Below, piece after piece: positions 1,468-38,686 of a stretch of DNA of 58,002 nt; the stretch's first letter is position 1, and each line of letters starts with the position of its first letter. Under the pieces are notes generated by a model. That model was not told the DNA's origin, did no database searches, and saw nothing but the letters and a program-made list of their open reading frames with translations. A program made the translations under genes and the position numbers. Origin of the DNA: Thermoplasmata archaeon (GTDB taxonomy: Archaea > Thermoplasmatota > Thermoplasmata > Thermoplasmatales > Thermoplasmataceae); contig JAKAPZ010000003.1 in the NCBI GenBank assembly GCA_021822985.1, forward strand, positions 1 through 58,002. Reading direction: 5' to 3'.

Positions 1468-2013
1468 TTACTTCACCCTGATATTCTCTATCTCTTCCAA
1501 CCTGTGTGACCATGATTCCCTGCACTGCAGCGCAAAAGATTTTGATTTTGCAATGAGAGATGAAAGTTCCTGATCACTCATGGAGCATGGATCTGCTGTA
1601 GCTCCAAGAAGATTCTTGATTTCATTTCCAGAATTTACGAATGAAAAATCAAAATCATATATTCTGTCAAGACTTGCATTCTTTATTTTAATGGGGGCTG
1701 CAAATCCCGAATATCCCTGCTCGGCATGCATAATATCGCCACCCAGTGCCTGTAATAGAGAAATCAAATCGGCAAGGCTGAGCAGATTTGACATTTTAAA
1801 ACACTGGCTCAAACTCTGCCTCATATTTTCCAGTGTGGTTATACAATTACGGAAGATACCTGACACCTGTGATCTCAAAAGCTGATCAGCTATCCTGATG
1901 TCTTCCTTTTGCCTGTATCCAGAAAAACCTGGAACTAAAATCTGAATTTTTTTGAGAATGGATCTGTTATCTTCGACCTCACTTCGTATATCATTGCCCC
2001 CATCCTGTTTCAT
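1468..2013 (-). CDS. Conserved hypothetical protein, first gene of SPFH operon
   Basis: 181 aa, not recognised. Predicted mainly helical and soluble, with no signal peptide or membrane segment. It ends 1 nt before the SPFH gene start, and the SPFH Shine-Dalgarno lies in its last codons, so the two are co-translated. Start ATG at 2013; an AT-rich stretch upstream (2014-2083) separates it from the broken membrane-protein gene and is the likely operon promoter. The context suggests a partner of the SPFH scaffold. That is inference. Confidence 0.65.
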   Translation of the reverse strand: MKQDGGNDIRSEVEDNRSILKKIQILVPGFSGYRQKEDIRIADQLLRSQVSGIFRNCITTLENMRQSLSQCFKMSNLLSLADLISLLQALGGDIMHAEQGYSGFAAPIKIKNASLDRIYDFDFSFVNSGNEIKNLLGATADPCSMSDQELSSLIAKSKSFALQCRESWSHRLEEIENIRVK

Positions 2014-6208: not shown

Positions 6209-6664
6209 ATGTTAAATATAAGAGACGCCACTGAGAAAGATATAAAAATAATCAAACTTCTGGAGGACAGGGCATTTCTACAGGATGCATATGATGTGGA
6301 GATGCTGCTCACTGCAATTCTTGAAAGTGAAGGGATGTCCGTAATTGCAGAATATGATGGTGAACCTGCTGGCTATTCAATAGCCATAGGGATGAAGGAG
6401 AGAAAGGCAGATATAGAGAGCATTTGCGTTGATCCAGGATTCCGCGGCAAAGGAATCGGAATGGGACTGCTCACGGCCATAGAGCAGAAAATGATGGAAA
6501 GAGGCTTTACTGAATCTGTGCTTGAAGTGAGGGAACATAACAGAAGTGCCATAGCGCTGTACGAAAAGGCAGGATATATTCACGTAAAAATACTGCATAA
6601 TTTTTATGAAGGAGAATTTGAAGGTAGTAGAGATGCCATCAGGATGAAAAAAATTTTGAGGTAA
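6209..6664 (+). CDS. RimI-like GNAT N-acetyltransferase
   Basis: 151 aa single-domain GNAT protein. The acetyl-CoA loop is R-x-x-G-x-G/A in GFRGKGIGMGLL near residue 76, and the C-terminal motif is EVREHNRSAIALYEKAGY, typical of RimI/Ard1 N-terminal acetyltransferases. Probable role: N-alpha-acetylation of proteins. It is divergent from ribB. Its last 26 nt overlap the end of the convergent HD gene. Confidence 0.85.
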   Translation: MLNIRDATEKDIKIIKLLEDRAFLQDAYDVEMLLTAILESEGMSVIAEYDGEPAGYSIAIGMKERKADIESICVDPGFRGKGIGMGLLTAIEQKMMERGFTESVLEVREHNRSAIALYEKAGYIHVKILHNFYEGEFEGSRDAIRMKKILR

Positions 6665-34113: not shown

Positions 34114-34932
34114 ATGCTGAAAATGCAATTTAAGAAAGATCTGAGATGCATTCAAATAAAAGATATTGAATCCATATCCACTTATGAATGGCTGGAACTC
34201 TCTTTTTTCCAGAATTTCCTAAAAAAATACGTCATCCAGGGGATTTTGTCAGGCTCTACTGTGCTGTATTCAATCAATTCTAAAGATCAGGTGACAGGAA
34301 TTTTTATCTATTCACAGGAAGAGAGAGAAGGGGCCATTTTTGCCAAAGACGTTGAATCTTTCTCTCTTCTTGCCCCTCATGGGAGGAATGTTTCCATCTT
34401 CTCGGAATTGAAACTTCCGATAAAAGGAGACAGATACCTCATAATGGAAGGCGACATATCCGTTGGTTCAGATGTGCAATCCTGTGGAAACCTCATAGAA
34501 GTTCTTCAAATTTCAGACCTCCCTGATCTGATGGAGTGTGTCAAAAGTGTTTATTCCTTTGCACAAAGCTCATCTGTCAGGGCCTCACTTCAAGACGGCG
34601 ATATATGCTTCATTGCCAGAATCAACAACCATATAGCAGGTTTTGCGTTTTTATCCATTGCAAATCATGATGGGAGGTTTCCGCTCATAGGAGTTCTGCA
34701 GGAGTACCATGGCCTCGGAATAGGAAATGATCTGATGAGAGCCAGAATGTCATTCCTGAAAAAAATGGGAGTCCGCAGGGTGTTTTCTGAGATAGAGGAA
34801 CATAATGTTCGCTCCCTTGAATTGTCTAAAAAATTCGGATTTAAGCCCGTGGGGCAATTGTGGCTATACGGGCCTGATTCAGGTTCTTGGAGCGCCACAA
34901 TTGGGGCACTTGGACAGAGTGGTGTCAATTAG
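34114..34932 (+). CDS. GNAT acetyltransferase with N-terminal extra domain
   Basis: 272 aa. The C-terminal GNAT domain (about 130-270) shows the acetyl-CoA loop in VLQEYHGLGIGNDLM and ENNxRSxxLxxKxGF-like EEHNVRSLELSKKFGFKPVG. The first 125 residues look like a degenerate second GNAT fold without the acetyl-CoA motif. Substrate unknown. Its last 54 nt overlap the end of the convergent zinc-ribbon gene. Confidence 0.78.
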   Translation: MLKMQFKKDLRCIQIKDIESISTYEWLELSFFQNFLKKYVIQGILSGSTVLYSINSKDQVTGIFIYSQEEREGAIFAKDVESFSLLAPHGRNVSIFSELKLPIKGDRYLIMEGDISVGSDVQSCGNLIEVLQISDLPDLMECVKSVYSFAQSSSVRASLQDGDICFIARINNHIAGFAFLSIANHDGRFPLIGVLQEYHGLGIGNDLMRARMSFLKKMGVRRVFSEIEEHNVRSLELSKKFGFKPVGQLWLYGPDSGSWSATIGALGQSGVN

Positions 34933-35118
34933 CACTCCGCAATATTGGCACTTTACCTTTACCACTTCCTTGACTATTATTTGTTCCCCATAAGGTTGTT
35001 TGACTGTGAGATGAAGTGGCACAGGGTCAGGTCCCGGAGTGGGATCCACATTAACTGGATCAAAACTGATATTTCCATCGGAATGCTCTTTCAATTTTTT
35101 ATTTTTGTCGAATACCAT
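34879..35118 (-). CDS. Small zinc-ribbon protein
   Basis: 79 aa. A Pro/Asp-rich linker (DPVNVDPTPGPDPVP) is followed by one zinc ribbon, KCQYCG...KCPNCGAPR, at residues 55-77. Its length and plan suggest an adaptor. Third gene of the leftward cluster with the 509- and 390-aa proteins, 80 bp behind the former. The 3' end overlaps the convergent GNAT gene by 54 nt. Confidence 0.65.
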   Translation of the reverse strand: MVFDKNKKLKEHSDGNISFDPVNVDPTPGPDPVPLHLTVKQPYGEQIIVKEVVKVKCQYCGVLIDTTLSKCPNCGAPRT

Positions 35119-35198
35119 GTTATACCAAAATATGATACCTTACAATATGATTAACGTTGCCATTCTGCGCCATTTAAAAAAATATGGAGAAAATTGAT

Positions 35199-36728
35199 TT
35201 ATCCGTTGGTTCCTCCTGACAGGTGAATATGCCCGGGGTGTGATCCTCCAAATGCGCTATATGTTGCAAAGTACCCTGAATGAACACATGCAAATCCCAC
35301 ATAGTAAGGCATTACGAAACCATAGGGCCTGTATGTGAACTGGACTGGCGTATTCTTGATTTTAGCTGTAGTGTCAAGTTGCTTTATGGTTTCATTTCTC
35401 ATTCCATGAACTGCCCTTACGGCAAGCCCTATCAATTCCGGCTGATCCATGTCCCTGATGTAACGCCCCAAAATTGTATATGCCCTGGACAAGAGATTCA
35501 GTGCTTCATTTGCCTCAAAAATGGAAATTTCTGCAAGAATTGCAGATGCCACAAGCGGATATTCCAGATAGTTTTTCACACCCTCTATTATGATGCCAAG
35601 TTTCGTCTGGAAACCCTCAGCAGGTATTTCAGATATGGCTAGATAGGCAGAGGCAAGTTCTGTATCTTCTGACTGATCGTATCCCCATGACTGGAATATT
35701 TTTTTCATGGACGAGAATTTGGAAATTATTTCATCCATTGGCTTATTGATAATTGCCATGACAGTAGCCGCATCGGTGGATGGTGTAACGCCCATGTACT
35801 TCTCAAGCCTGTCAAATGGATAGTTGCCAGACTGATCCATTCCGAGGTAAAGCATGCTTGCTACACCCATAGCGGATTCCTTCGCGATATGGAGTTTCTT
35901 ATGGACTGTTTTTTCAAGTTCCACTATCTGGTCGAGAGTCTTGTCAAGATCCACGGGAGATTCTGACAGCATTTCTGCACCCATTATCACATTGTCTGAA
36001 TTTTTGGATTCTCCCCTGAGGAATCTGTAAGCAGAAACAAACTTCTTGTCCATTGCAATTGCATCACCTTCAATTTTTGACAGACCCACGCAAACGCTCC
36101 ATAGATGGGATTCGTCCACATTTTCCATGCTTGGGTTCAATCTGCCAAAGTGCAGGACTGAATCTTTTGCGATTTCAGTCAATTCATCATCTACTGCTTT
36201 TTCCTGAATTTGATAATCAGAAAGTGCTATATCTGATACCCTGTACATCTTCAGAGTCAGATTTGACAGTAGCGCTTTCCCCGTTGTTGTCATGCCAACA
36301 TAATAATTTCCGTTTTTGTAAAGAGATTCCATGACCGTCTTTTTAGATATAAGATTTGCAATCACAGATTGATCTTCTGCTAATTTGGATGAATACTCCT
36401 TTATTTTTGAATTTTCGTCACTTATTTCGGCACGGATCTCTTCTTTCTTTTGCTCACCCCTAAGATGGAATGATATGGATTGCTCTTTTTTCTCTGATTC
36501 AAATTCCAGTATCTTTTCATCTCCAAGAGACTTGCGATCTGCATACTCAGCAGTCTGGGCATCTCCCAACCTTGCAACCTCATCAGATAGTGACTTATAT
36601 TCTGCTTCGGAAAAGATATTGGCGGCCCCAATTTGTTTCAGTTCTGTTCCTTCCTGTTCGTTCAGATCTGCGATTTCCTGTTTTATATTTAAGCTATTCA
36701 ATATAGCCTGAGCCCTTGCGCAATTCAT
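35199..36728 (-). CDS. Coiled-coil protein of unknown function
   Basis: 509 aa from ATG 36728, 4 nt after the upstream stop (TTG 36743 would add five residues). Residues about 10-130 are strongly charged with heptad-like Glu/Lys/Ser content, probably a coiled coil. The rest is helical. The C-terminus is a Tyr/Gly/His-rich tail ending HSGYFATYSAFGGSHPGHIH plus Gly. Not recognised. No membrane segment or signal peptide. Tightly linked to the 390-aa protein. Confidence 0.65.
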   Translation of the reverse strand: MNCARAQAILNSLNIKQEIADLNEQEGTELKQIGAANIFSEAEYKSLSDEVARLGDAQTAEYADRKSLGDEKILEFESEKKEQSISFHLRGEQKKEEIRAEISDENSKIKEYSSKLAEDQSVIANLISKKTVMESLYKNGNYYVGMTTTGKALLSNLTLKMYRVSDIALSDYQIQEKAVDDELTEIAKDSVLHFGRLNPSMENVDESHLWSVCVGLSKIEGDAIAMDKKFVSAYRFLRGESKNSDNVIMGAEMLSESPVDLDKTLDQIVELEKTVHKKLHIAKESAMGVASMLYLGMDQSGNYPFDRLEKYMGVTPSTDAATVMAIINKPMDEIISKFSSMKKIFQSWGYDQSEDTELASAYLAISEIPAEGFQTKLGIIIEGVKNYLEYPLVASAILAEISIFEANEALNLLSRAYTILGRYIRDMDQPELIGLAVRAVHGMRNETIKQLDTTAKIKNTPVQFTYRPYGFVMPYYVGFACVHSGYFATYSAFGGSHPGHIHLSGGTNG

Positions 36729-36732
36729 ACTA

Positions 36733-37905
36733 TCAAAGATCAATAAGTGTTATTGTTCTATATAATTTTTCCAATCTGAGAGTATTTTGGATGGTGATCT
36801 GCAATCTTTCAGTGCTGAAATTAGCTTTCAATATGGGCTCATTTTTGAGTGCTTCCTGGACAAGCATTGGAAATTGCACCCTTCTCTCGGTTATATCGTT
36901 AAACCTCCTCTGCCTTTCCTGTTCAAACTGCTCCATAGCAAAAGTAAATTCGTATAGTGATCTGTAAAACTGCTCATCTATCTTCTCTCCAACTCTCGAT
37001 TCCAGAATGTAATTGCGTTCAACACCCTCCAGATCAACGAAATATAATGTTCCATCAGGGGCCACAACTGCATCCTTGTCTATCCAGACATCGAAATAAT
37101 CAAGCCCGCTGAATGATCCGTCCTCCTCAATTCTCATTGTGCGTGCAAATATGGATAGTGCTGCTAAACCGCTTCTTATGAAATTGATCTCAAATTCGAT
37201 AGCCTGCATGTTTGATTCTATTGAAAACATGTCAAATATTCTTGAAATATTTGAGCCAAGTGTGTTGTAAGAATGGAAATATATTCTTACGTTGGATGGA
37301 ACCAGCCTCAGCTCCTGTACGAACCTGCCCTTAAATTTCCTGTACCAATATAAGCCCCTGATTTCATTCTCCATTTCCTCAGGAAGGTACATTAATCTTA
37401 TGACCGGAGCTATCATAAAACCATTGATGCTTAATGGTTCTGCCATGTTTGAAGTCTTTAGGGCAATTATTCCATGCTCCTCTCCCTGGCCCCCATATGG
37501 TGAGCCCCGAAGCCAGACCTCTCCGGTTATGAATCTTCCCAGTGTGTCATTCAACTTATTCAGCCTCTCTGAGGTACTCCTGCTTCTCGAAATGACAAGC
37601 GTGTTTGACCTGTTAAGCAATTCCATTGAGTATGGATCTGTGGTGGAACCTATTCCCTTAACGCACAGATAAAAGTCTGTTTTTCCAATTGTCACAAATG
37701 GTTCTGGATATATGGCGCTTCTGTTATCATCTTCTATAAATTCCATTGGTTCATAAGAGTATTCAGGGAACATATCTTTCAATGATTCCGGGACATAGAT
37801 TCCTTCTACAGACTGAATTTCACTCTGCTCGAACATATTATTGATTTTCTTTTGTCCTGTCTTCATGTAAAATAATTTTATAGGTTTGCCGGGAATTTGA
37901 ACCAT
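36733..37905 (-). CDS. Unrecognised 390-aa protein, possible kinase-like fold
   Basis: Starts at ATG 37905 with a TTTTATAAT box about 20 nt upstream. The sequence is soluble and mixed alpha/beta. IGKTDFYLCVKGIGSTTDPYS (near 72) and DVWIDKDAVVAPDGTLYFVDLEGVE (near 275) faintly recall the lysine and the D-x-E catalytic end of atypical kinases, but no complete motif set is present. First gene of a three-gene unit with the coiled-coil and zinc-ribbon proteins. Function unknown. Confidence 0.6.
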   Translation of the reverse strand: MVQIPGKPIKLFYMKTGQKKINNMFEQSEIQSVEGIYVPESLKDMFPEYSYEPMEFIEDDNRSAIYPEPFVTIGKTDFYLCVKGIGSTTDPYSMELLNRSNTLVISRSRSTSERLNKLNDTLGRFITGEVWLRGSPYGGQGEEHGIIALKTSNMAEPLSINGFMIAPVIRLMYLPEEMENEIRGLYWYRKFKGRFVQELRLVPSNVRIYFHSYNTLGSNISRIFDMFSIESNMQAIEFEINFIRSGLAALSIFARTMRIEEDGSFSGLDYFDVWIDKDAVVAPDGTLYFVDLEGVERNYILESRVGEKIDEQFYRSLYEFTFAMEQFEQERQRRFNDITERRVQFPMLVQEALKNEPILKANFSTERLQITIQNTLRLEKLYRTITLIDL

Positions 37906-38152
37906 GAATGTGCATTAATTGAGATTATAAAAGCTAGAGCTTTGGCAATCCGGGAAACTTATTAATGAGGGGAAATTTCTTTGAAAATGTGTAGAAAATA
38001 TATTAACTGCTTCAACGCACAGAAATTCAATATCCCTATTTTCTCACAGATGCTTTATCTAAACTGACTTTTGAATGGAAAACGTTTTTTATTGCCATCT
38101 TTAGAAGTGATTGTACCAAATAATTTATATTTATAAAAGCAGTATTTGTTTT

Positions 38153-38686
38153 ATGAAAACTACATATGTGATTGCAGTTGTGGTCATAATTCTGGCTGCA
38201 GGCTTGGGTTCCTATGCATACGTATATGAACAGGGCCAAAACAGTGGAAATATGACCTTATCAGTGGCAGATCTCAGCATATCAGGAGTTAGTGCTGTAT
38301 ATATAAAATTCAGTGAAGTATCGCTTCACAAGGCCCCCGCCAATGGTTCGACCAGCAGCACACAGGGTGGATGGACAAACTATTCTATAAGCACTCGCAC
38401 CATAGATATCCTTAACCTTACAGCAAGCAATGCTTCGGTCCTTGGAAATATATCCCTTGGCACAGGCACTTACACAATGATAAGGCTTTACATCACAAGT
38501 GTGACAGTAACCATTTTGGGAAGTAATTACAGTTTCAAGCTCATGTCCCCTTTTGCATTCATAAACCATCCATTCACCATATCGGCACATTCCACTACTA
38601 ACGTGATGCTGGAATTCAACCTGAGCAGCGACATGAGCATAACATCAAAAGTATTTACTCCCAACATAGGCATAGTTGTTTCCTGA
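38153..38686 (+). CDS. DUF4382-domain membrane-anchored exported protein
   Basis: 177 aa. An N-terminal signal/anchor (TTYVIAVVVIILAAGLGSYAY) precedes one DUF4382 domain: SVADLSISGVSAVYIKFSEVSLHKA, GWTNYSI, TIDILNLTASNASVLGNISLGTGTYTMIRLYI. Several N-x-S/T sequons fit a glycosylated surface protein. ATG 38153 is chosen because the frame upstream (TTG 38111) has no signal and TTTATATTTATAAAAG lies 15-30 nt before the ATG. Function of the family unknown. The 247-bp gap 37906-38152 otherwise holds nothing. Confidence 0.75.
   Translation: MKTTYVIAVVVIILAAGLGSYAYVYEQGQNSGNMTLSVADLSISGVSAVYIKFSEVSLHKAPANGSTSSTQGGWTNYSISTRTIDILNLTASNASVLGNISLGTGTYTMIRLYITSVTVTILGSNYSFKLMSPFAFINHPFTISAHSTTNVMLEFNLSSDMSITSKVFTPNIGIVVS

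Follow-up and report, generated by a model that had tools for sequence, protein, structure and literature searches.

A conserved gene module for a kinase-like protein, a membrane protein and a GNAT acetyltransferase in Thermoplasmata archaea

The DNA analysed here (the window) is a stretch of 58,002 nucleotides from a Thermoplasmata archaeon of the family Thermoplasmataceae (contig JAKAPZ010000003.1 of assembly GCA_021822985.1), and the subject of this report is a group of four genes, named A, B, C and G, that lies between its positions 34,114 and 37,905. The following features were distinguished in the window:

36733..37905 (-): gene A, 390 amino acids, predicted protein-kinase-like fold, new family
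35199..36728 (-): gene B, 509 amino acids counted from the ATG, 4 nt 3' of A
35119..35163 (-): degraded transmembrane (TM) segment of gene C with an in-frame TAA, translation NQFSPYFFKWRRMATLIIL*GIIFWYN
34879..35118 (-): remnant of gene C (zinc-ribbon open reading frame, ORF), 79 codons, 80 bp past B
34114..34932 (+): gene G, GNAT acetyltransferase of 272 amino acids, convergent, with its 3' end overlapping C

A first-pass annotation had described A, B and the zinc-ribbon ORF as an unrecognised three-gene unit, and its ORF positions, the 4-nt spacing between A and B and the 80-bp gap between B and the ribbon are all correct. A and B are genuine genes, since their orthologues in other genomes keep order and spacing and since non-synonymous divergence (dN) between the window and its nearest relative, locus L014, amounts to 0.23 (A) and 0.26 (B) while synonymous sites are saturated. 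The ribbon ORF, by contrast, is the tail remnant of a membrane protein, and the fourth gene, G, had been missed. The unit is indeed a conserved module without a recognised family for its two large proteins: A and B give only noise-level matches in Pfam, NCBIfam and the PDB sequences, also when the whole families are scanned. G matches the Pfam family Acetyltransf_1 (1.2e-11).

Gene order and distribution of the module

Gene A was searched in 61 genomes, seven of which were positive, including the window's own, and a scan of GTDB representative contigs yielded 55 loci from other genomes. Nearly all of the latter come from metagenome-assembled genomes (MAGs) labelled Thermoplasmata or Thermoplasmatales; the labels Bathyarchaeota or bacterium, carried by three records, are probably binning labels. 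Profiles were built from the module genes and run against every ORF of these loci. The layout is nearly uniform: A is followed a few bases later by B and then by C, with G on the opposite strand converging on C, and this order is kept in the 55 Thermoplasmata loci from other genomes. G stands beside C in nearly all loci with sufficient sequence, and genes absent from the standard layout are nearly always explained by contig ends, the exception being L052, where A, B and C are present and there is room for G, yet G is undetected. Clustering of the neighbourhoods of 67 loci revealed no further conserved partner, the next family being found in only 10 of the 67 and at inconsistent positions. The distribution of the module is patchy. 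Indeed, A is present in 67 of 400 genomes of a sample of the class and in 11 of 293 of a sample of the phylum, and it is missing from most of the sampled sister species of the window organism.

A second group of loci was reached via more distant homologues of A, among others in G086, which belongs to another class, in G345 and in family f64. A and B are found together in all 12 of these divergent loci, and in 10 of them (G086 plus 9 of 11 others) they are preceded by a single fused ORF, in which the GNAT domain comes immediately after the ectodomain and TM helix of C; then come A and B. In the remaining two, the C part was undetected upstream of G (L104) or the locus ends at the contig edge (L112). 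In a tree of A, all fused loci lie on one side and the split loci on the other side of a branch with 100/99 support, the long branches of L093 and L111 being placed with caution. The fusion is a Rosetta-stone link that ties G to the module, and it shows the GNAT domain in the place behind the membrane that the zinc-ribbon tail takes elsewhere. The fused ORF of L093 (10398-12065) encodes a single-pass membrane protein with a cytosolic GNAT domain, a receptor-acetyltransferase architecture that is found at about 10 Thermoplasmatota loci.

Predicted architecture of the encoded proteins

In relatives of the window organism, complete C proteins have approximately 340-420 residues (typically approximately 345) and consist of a signal peptide, an ectodomain of approximately 220 residues, one TM helix, a basic, proline-rich linker and a four-cysteine zinc ribbon that ends in CGAPRT or near variants. 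C is therefore predicted to be a single-pass type I membrane protein with the ectodomain outside and the zinc-ribbon tail in the cytosol. The ectodomain is without a match in Pfam, NCBIfam and the PDB, and the ribbon is of the generic CxxC-CxxC type and scores below the Pfam cut-offs.

The window copy covers only positions 265-340 of the C profile and has lost the start codon, the signal peptide and the ectodomain. What is left shares 71% identity with the last 79 residues of C from L014, and the 79-residue zinc-ribbon ORF thus reads as the surviving cytosolic tail of C and not as a normal gene. When the L014 protein was searched against the window's genome assembly, its residues 251-344 aligned at 34882-35163 with one in-frame stop (TAA) in the TM helix, and no second copy of C was found. 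Because this alignment extends into the 80-bp gap, the gap is taken as what is left of the deleted receptor. The loss is either recent, as the identity still shared with L014 would indicate, or an assembly artefact. A second disrupted receptor was observed in L015 (11671-12814), where C is divided over two ORFs by a frameshift or a sequencing error.

The first-pass annotation had seen faint atypical-kinase-like motifs in the 390-residue protein, and these are borne out. The AlphaFold2 (AF2) model of A, built from 47 sequences, has a mean predicted local distance difference test (pLDDT) of 92.6 and a predicted template modelling score (pTM) of 0.91, and a Foldseek search of the PDB with this model placed protein kinases on top (probability 0.97, E-value 2.4e-3), with matches that also include aminoglycoside phosphotransferase (APH) and NIS siderophore synthetases. 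The top two matches in a viral structure library are likewise kinases. The fold of A is thus confidently predicted to be protein-kinase-like (PKL), if divergent. Among 59 sequences from both clades, 58 columns of A are at least 95% identical. The motifs that they form include D59-D60-N61-R62 (first beta turn), K83-G-x-G (following strand 3), R200-x-x-P-S204-x-x-R207 (following strand 5), D276-K-D278-A-V as well as D291-L-E-G. With respect to the PKL superfamily, the model has the two-lobe fold, and the Lys/Asp/Asp set (K83, D276/D278, D291) is kept in at least 95% of the 59 sequences; the roles of beta-3 lysine, catalytic-loop aspartate and metal-binding aspartate were assigned by sequence position and secondary structure.

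For B, the AF2 model (pLDDT 80.8) predicts a winged-helix-like element at the N-terminus, into which a charged coiled-coil hairpin (residues 54-135) is inserted, an alpha-solenoid in the middle (206-440) and a disordered, aromatic tail. A long charged coiled coil and a Gly/His/Tyr tail had already been read from the window sequence, and both are confirmed: D, E, K and R make up 40% of residues 54-135, and the tail is rich in Gly, His and Tyr, with HPGHIH...G in the window (encoded at 35199-35280) and HPxHxH followed by a short stretch in general. The C-terminal residue is Gly in all 65 complete B proteins, including a clade whose tail is not Gly-rich, and HPxH is present in 62 of the 65, at 6 to 18 residues from the end. 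The C-terminus itself is thus under strong constraint. By fold, the model of B matches only designed helical repeats in the PDB, none significantly. A match to phrog_7459 was discounted, as it is confined to the coiled coil.

Proposed function and alternative explanations

Taken together, gene order, fusion and predicted folds lead us to propose, with moderate confidence, that A-B-C-G encodes a lineage-specific and so far undescribed transmembrane system of Thermoplasmata for modifying proteins (signalling). Carried by acid-loving and soil archaea of this group, it looks like a route from outside signals to protein tags. The ectodomain of C would sense a ligand or the state of the envelope outside the cell, and the cytosolic ribbon of C, or the fused GNAT domain, would bring the acetyltransferase to the membrane. 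A would be an active ATP-dependent transferase of phosphoryl groups or, a possibility considered because of its SelO-like phosphate-pocket motifs, of adenylyl groups. B would be scaffold and likely substrate: its coiled coil and alpha-solenoid would serve for binding, and its C-terminal HPxHxH...Gly tail would be the part that is modified or recognised. The copy of the window organism probably no longer senses, because the receptor is truncated; A and B may still act there, or the locus may be decaying.

A literature search revealed no described system with this gene set, and in the passages searched of papers on the proteome and the genome of Cuniculiplasma divulgatum no mention of module genes was found. 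As in receptor kinases of the membrane and in signalling modules with a GNAT enzyme, a one-pass sensor is coupled to a cytosolic modifying enzyme; here, however, it is the GNAT protein that is fused to the sensor, and the kinase-like protein stands apart. Descriptions of signal transduction in Thermoplasmata are scarce, and a four-protein module that occurs in many soil genomes and in a relative that has probably been cultured provides a compact, testable system. It brings with it a new divergent kinase-like family that has a conserved active-site signature and is linked by gene order and fusion to a receptor and an acetyltransferase, and the invariant C-terminal Gly of B raises a well-defined question of chemistry.

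The likeness of A to SelO (PF02696) concerns a putative phosphate pocket. PsSelO binds ATP in a flipped orientation and holds its gamma phosphate with Lys113, Arg176 and Arg183 (PMC8097203); the equivalents in E. coli SelO are K107, R170 and R177. A resembles SelO in its kinase-like fold and in three N-lobe motifs, namely the D-x-R turn, the K-G-x-G after beta 3 and an R-x3-S-x2-R that is spaced as the gamma-phosphate arginines of SelO, seven apart in both. In 200,000 shuffles of the identities of A's conserved columns, this pattern was never obtained. In contrast, A has D-x-x-x-D-K-D-A-V and D-L-E-G where SelO has M-N-T-D-N and D-Y-G-P, and approximately 60 extra residues separate the motifs in A. 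Membership was examined with Pfam, with hhalign (a single sequence, a 12-sequence profile and a loop-excised profile, plus 150 shuffles) and with Foldseek. PF02696 has no match in 47 members of A, PF02696 proteins are found in none of 21 relatives, and SelO is absent among the best 50 Foldseek matches listed for A. With the hhalign comparison not significant either, A was rejected as a member of SelO, which leaves a motif-level resemblance; A may work like SelO, though it is not classed as SelO.

Furthermore, A was compared with MchC/MceJ, a distant SelO branch of microcin maturation enzymes with an HlyC-type acyltransferase partner (MchD/MceI). In both systems a kinase-like protein is encoded beside an acyltransferase and a protein with an important C-terminus, and A shares the six-letter VKGIGS at the beta-3 lysine. 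The module differs in that B is a helical protein of 509 residues and no microcin, and in that a membrane receptor takes the place of an exporter. MchC membership was rejected, the profile comparison being not significant despite a working positive control. The SelO-like protein and the acyltransferase of the MceI/MceJ pair jointly modify a C-terminal carboxylate (PMC6071977, PMC7680869, PMC3281104), attaching their group to that of a C-terminal serine (PMC7680869, PMC6071977). By analogy, A might adenylate and thereby activate the C-terminal Gly carboxylate of B, which the GNAT-fold partner might then transfer to a membrane acceptor, an idea that we put forward as a long shot; if true, it would constitute an archaeal C-terminal protein-conjugation system, similar to MceI/MceJ, with an unrelated carrier and under receptor control.

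Several results weigh against an active transferase and, more broadly, against the signalling module proposed above. The Foldseek matches of A have a TM-score of only approximately 0.3 and an E-value of only 2e-3, indicating a divergent kinase-like fold. The SelO pattern used for the column shuffles was picked only after the resemblance had been noticed. In hhalign, A against SelO does not reach significance (E 0.02-0.04), nor does A against the combined profile (E 0.004 at best), and some of the 150 column-shuffled controls outscore the real comparison. The comparison with the MchC profile is not significant either (E 0.028, about 0.03), whereas the positive control, SelO against MchC by the same method, gives 97% and 1.6e-10, reproducing a described relationship (PMC3281104). 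Finally, the window's own C is broken.

This broken C also bears on the possibility that the locus in the window no longer functions and is in decay, whatever the family does elsewhere. The missing start codon, signal peptide and ectodomain, the stop in the TM remnant and the absence of A from most sampled sister species would all agree with decay; A and B, however, are full-length and have evolved under purifying selection after diverging from L014, and the deletion in C could stem from faulty assembly of a MAG. We regard decay as unlikely, though with a real share of the probability.

Alternatively, A could be a catalytically dead pseudokinase, A and B forming a structural scaffold under the membrane and G being the sole enzyme. 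The fold of A is divergent and lacks canonical HRD/DFG motifs and a glycine-rich loop, and B looks like a long helical scaffold. Nevertheless, in both clades the columns of A that are invariant fall together in motifs of the ATP-site type (DDNR, KGxG, DxxxDKDAV and DLEG), and this explanation is disfavoured, because a pure scaffold need not keep such motifs; it is judged rather improbable.

A conflict or anti-virus defence system is very doubtful. The patchy distribution would fit, and in the nearest relative (L008/L014, on the same contig) the module adjoins genes for a DO-GTPase2 (PF19993, 1.3e-10) and then a GAP1-N2 protein (PF20013, 4e-6) at L008:164-3519, families known from DO-GTPase/GAP1 conflict systems (PMC7159879). 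This adjacency is the only likeness to those systems and is confined to L008; elsewhere the pair lies outside the module, so it was rejected as a fifth partner. A defence or phage origin was likewise rejected, as PADLOC and PHROGs gave only coiled-coil or ribbon noise for A, B, C and the fusion protein, and a pattern scan of 2.9 M viral contigs found no homologue. In its own right, the pair in L008 represents an archaeal occurrence of the conflict-system core.

SPFH genes and neighbouring features of the window

The first-pass annotation had also suggested that A, B and the ribbon form one scaffold or signalling system with an SPFH-zinc-ribbon operon of the window, and proposed co-occurrence as a check. 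In the class sample, an SPFH gene is indeed present in 58 of the 67 genomes with A, and the nine genomes without it are all less than 85% complete. The association (Fisher p 6e-8, uncorrected for phylogeny) is not specific, though, as 174 of the 333 genomes without A have SPFH too. Within the window's genus, SPFH is constant while A varies (G005-G008 and G010 have SPFH but not A), and the two are unlinked, with distances of 33 kb (window) and 268 kb (G009) between them. As for the ribbon, said to resemble those of the SPFH operon, it is of the generic type and belongs to a membrane protein. The co-occurrence reflects a widespread, near-universal gene of those families and no dedicated partner; SPFH was rejected as a specific partner of A-B, and a common system is hardly credible.

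Some minor features were also observed. Within the genus of the window, two genomes have an in-frame TGA in their SPFH match (G002:C55:71411-72592 and G009:C1:1110639-1111769). Beside the SPFH-zinc-ribbon gene, window positions 1468-2013 (-) give a weak match to the LIMLP_15305 family (1e-7, below the cut-off). Upstream of A and outside the module, a gene at 38111-38686 (+) encodes a DUF4382 protein (3.5e-17) whose N-terminus is signal-like, and a second, shorter GNAT protein at 6209-6664 (+) shares distant similarity with G (E 1e-9).

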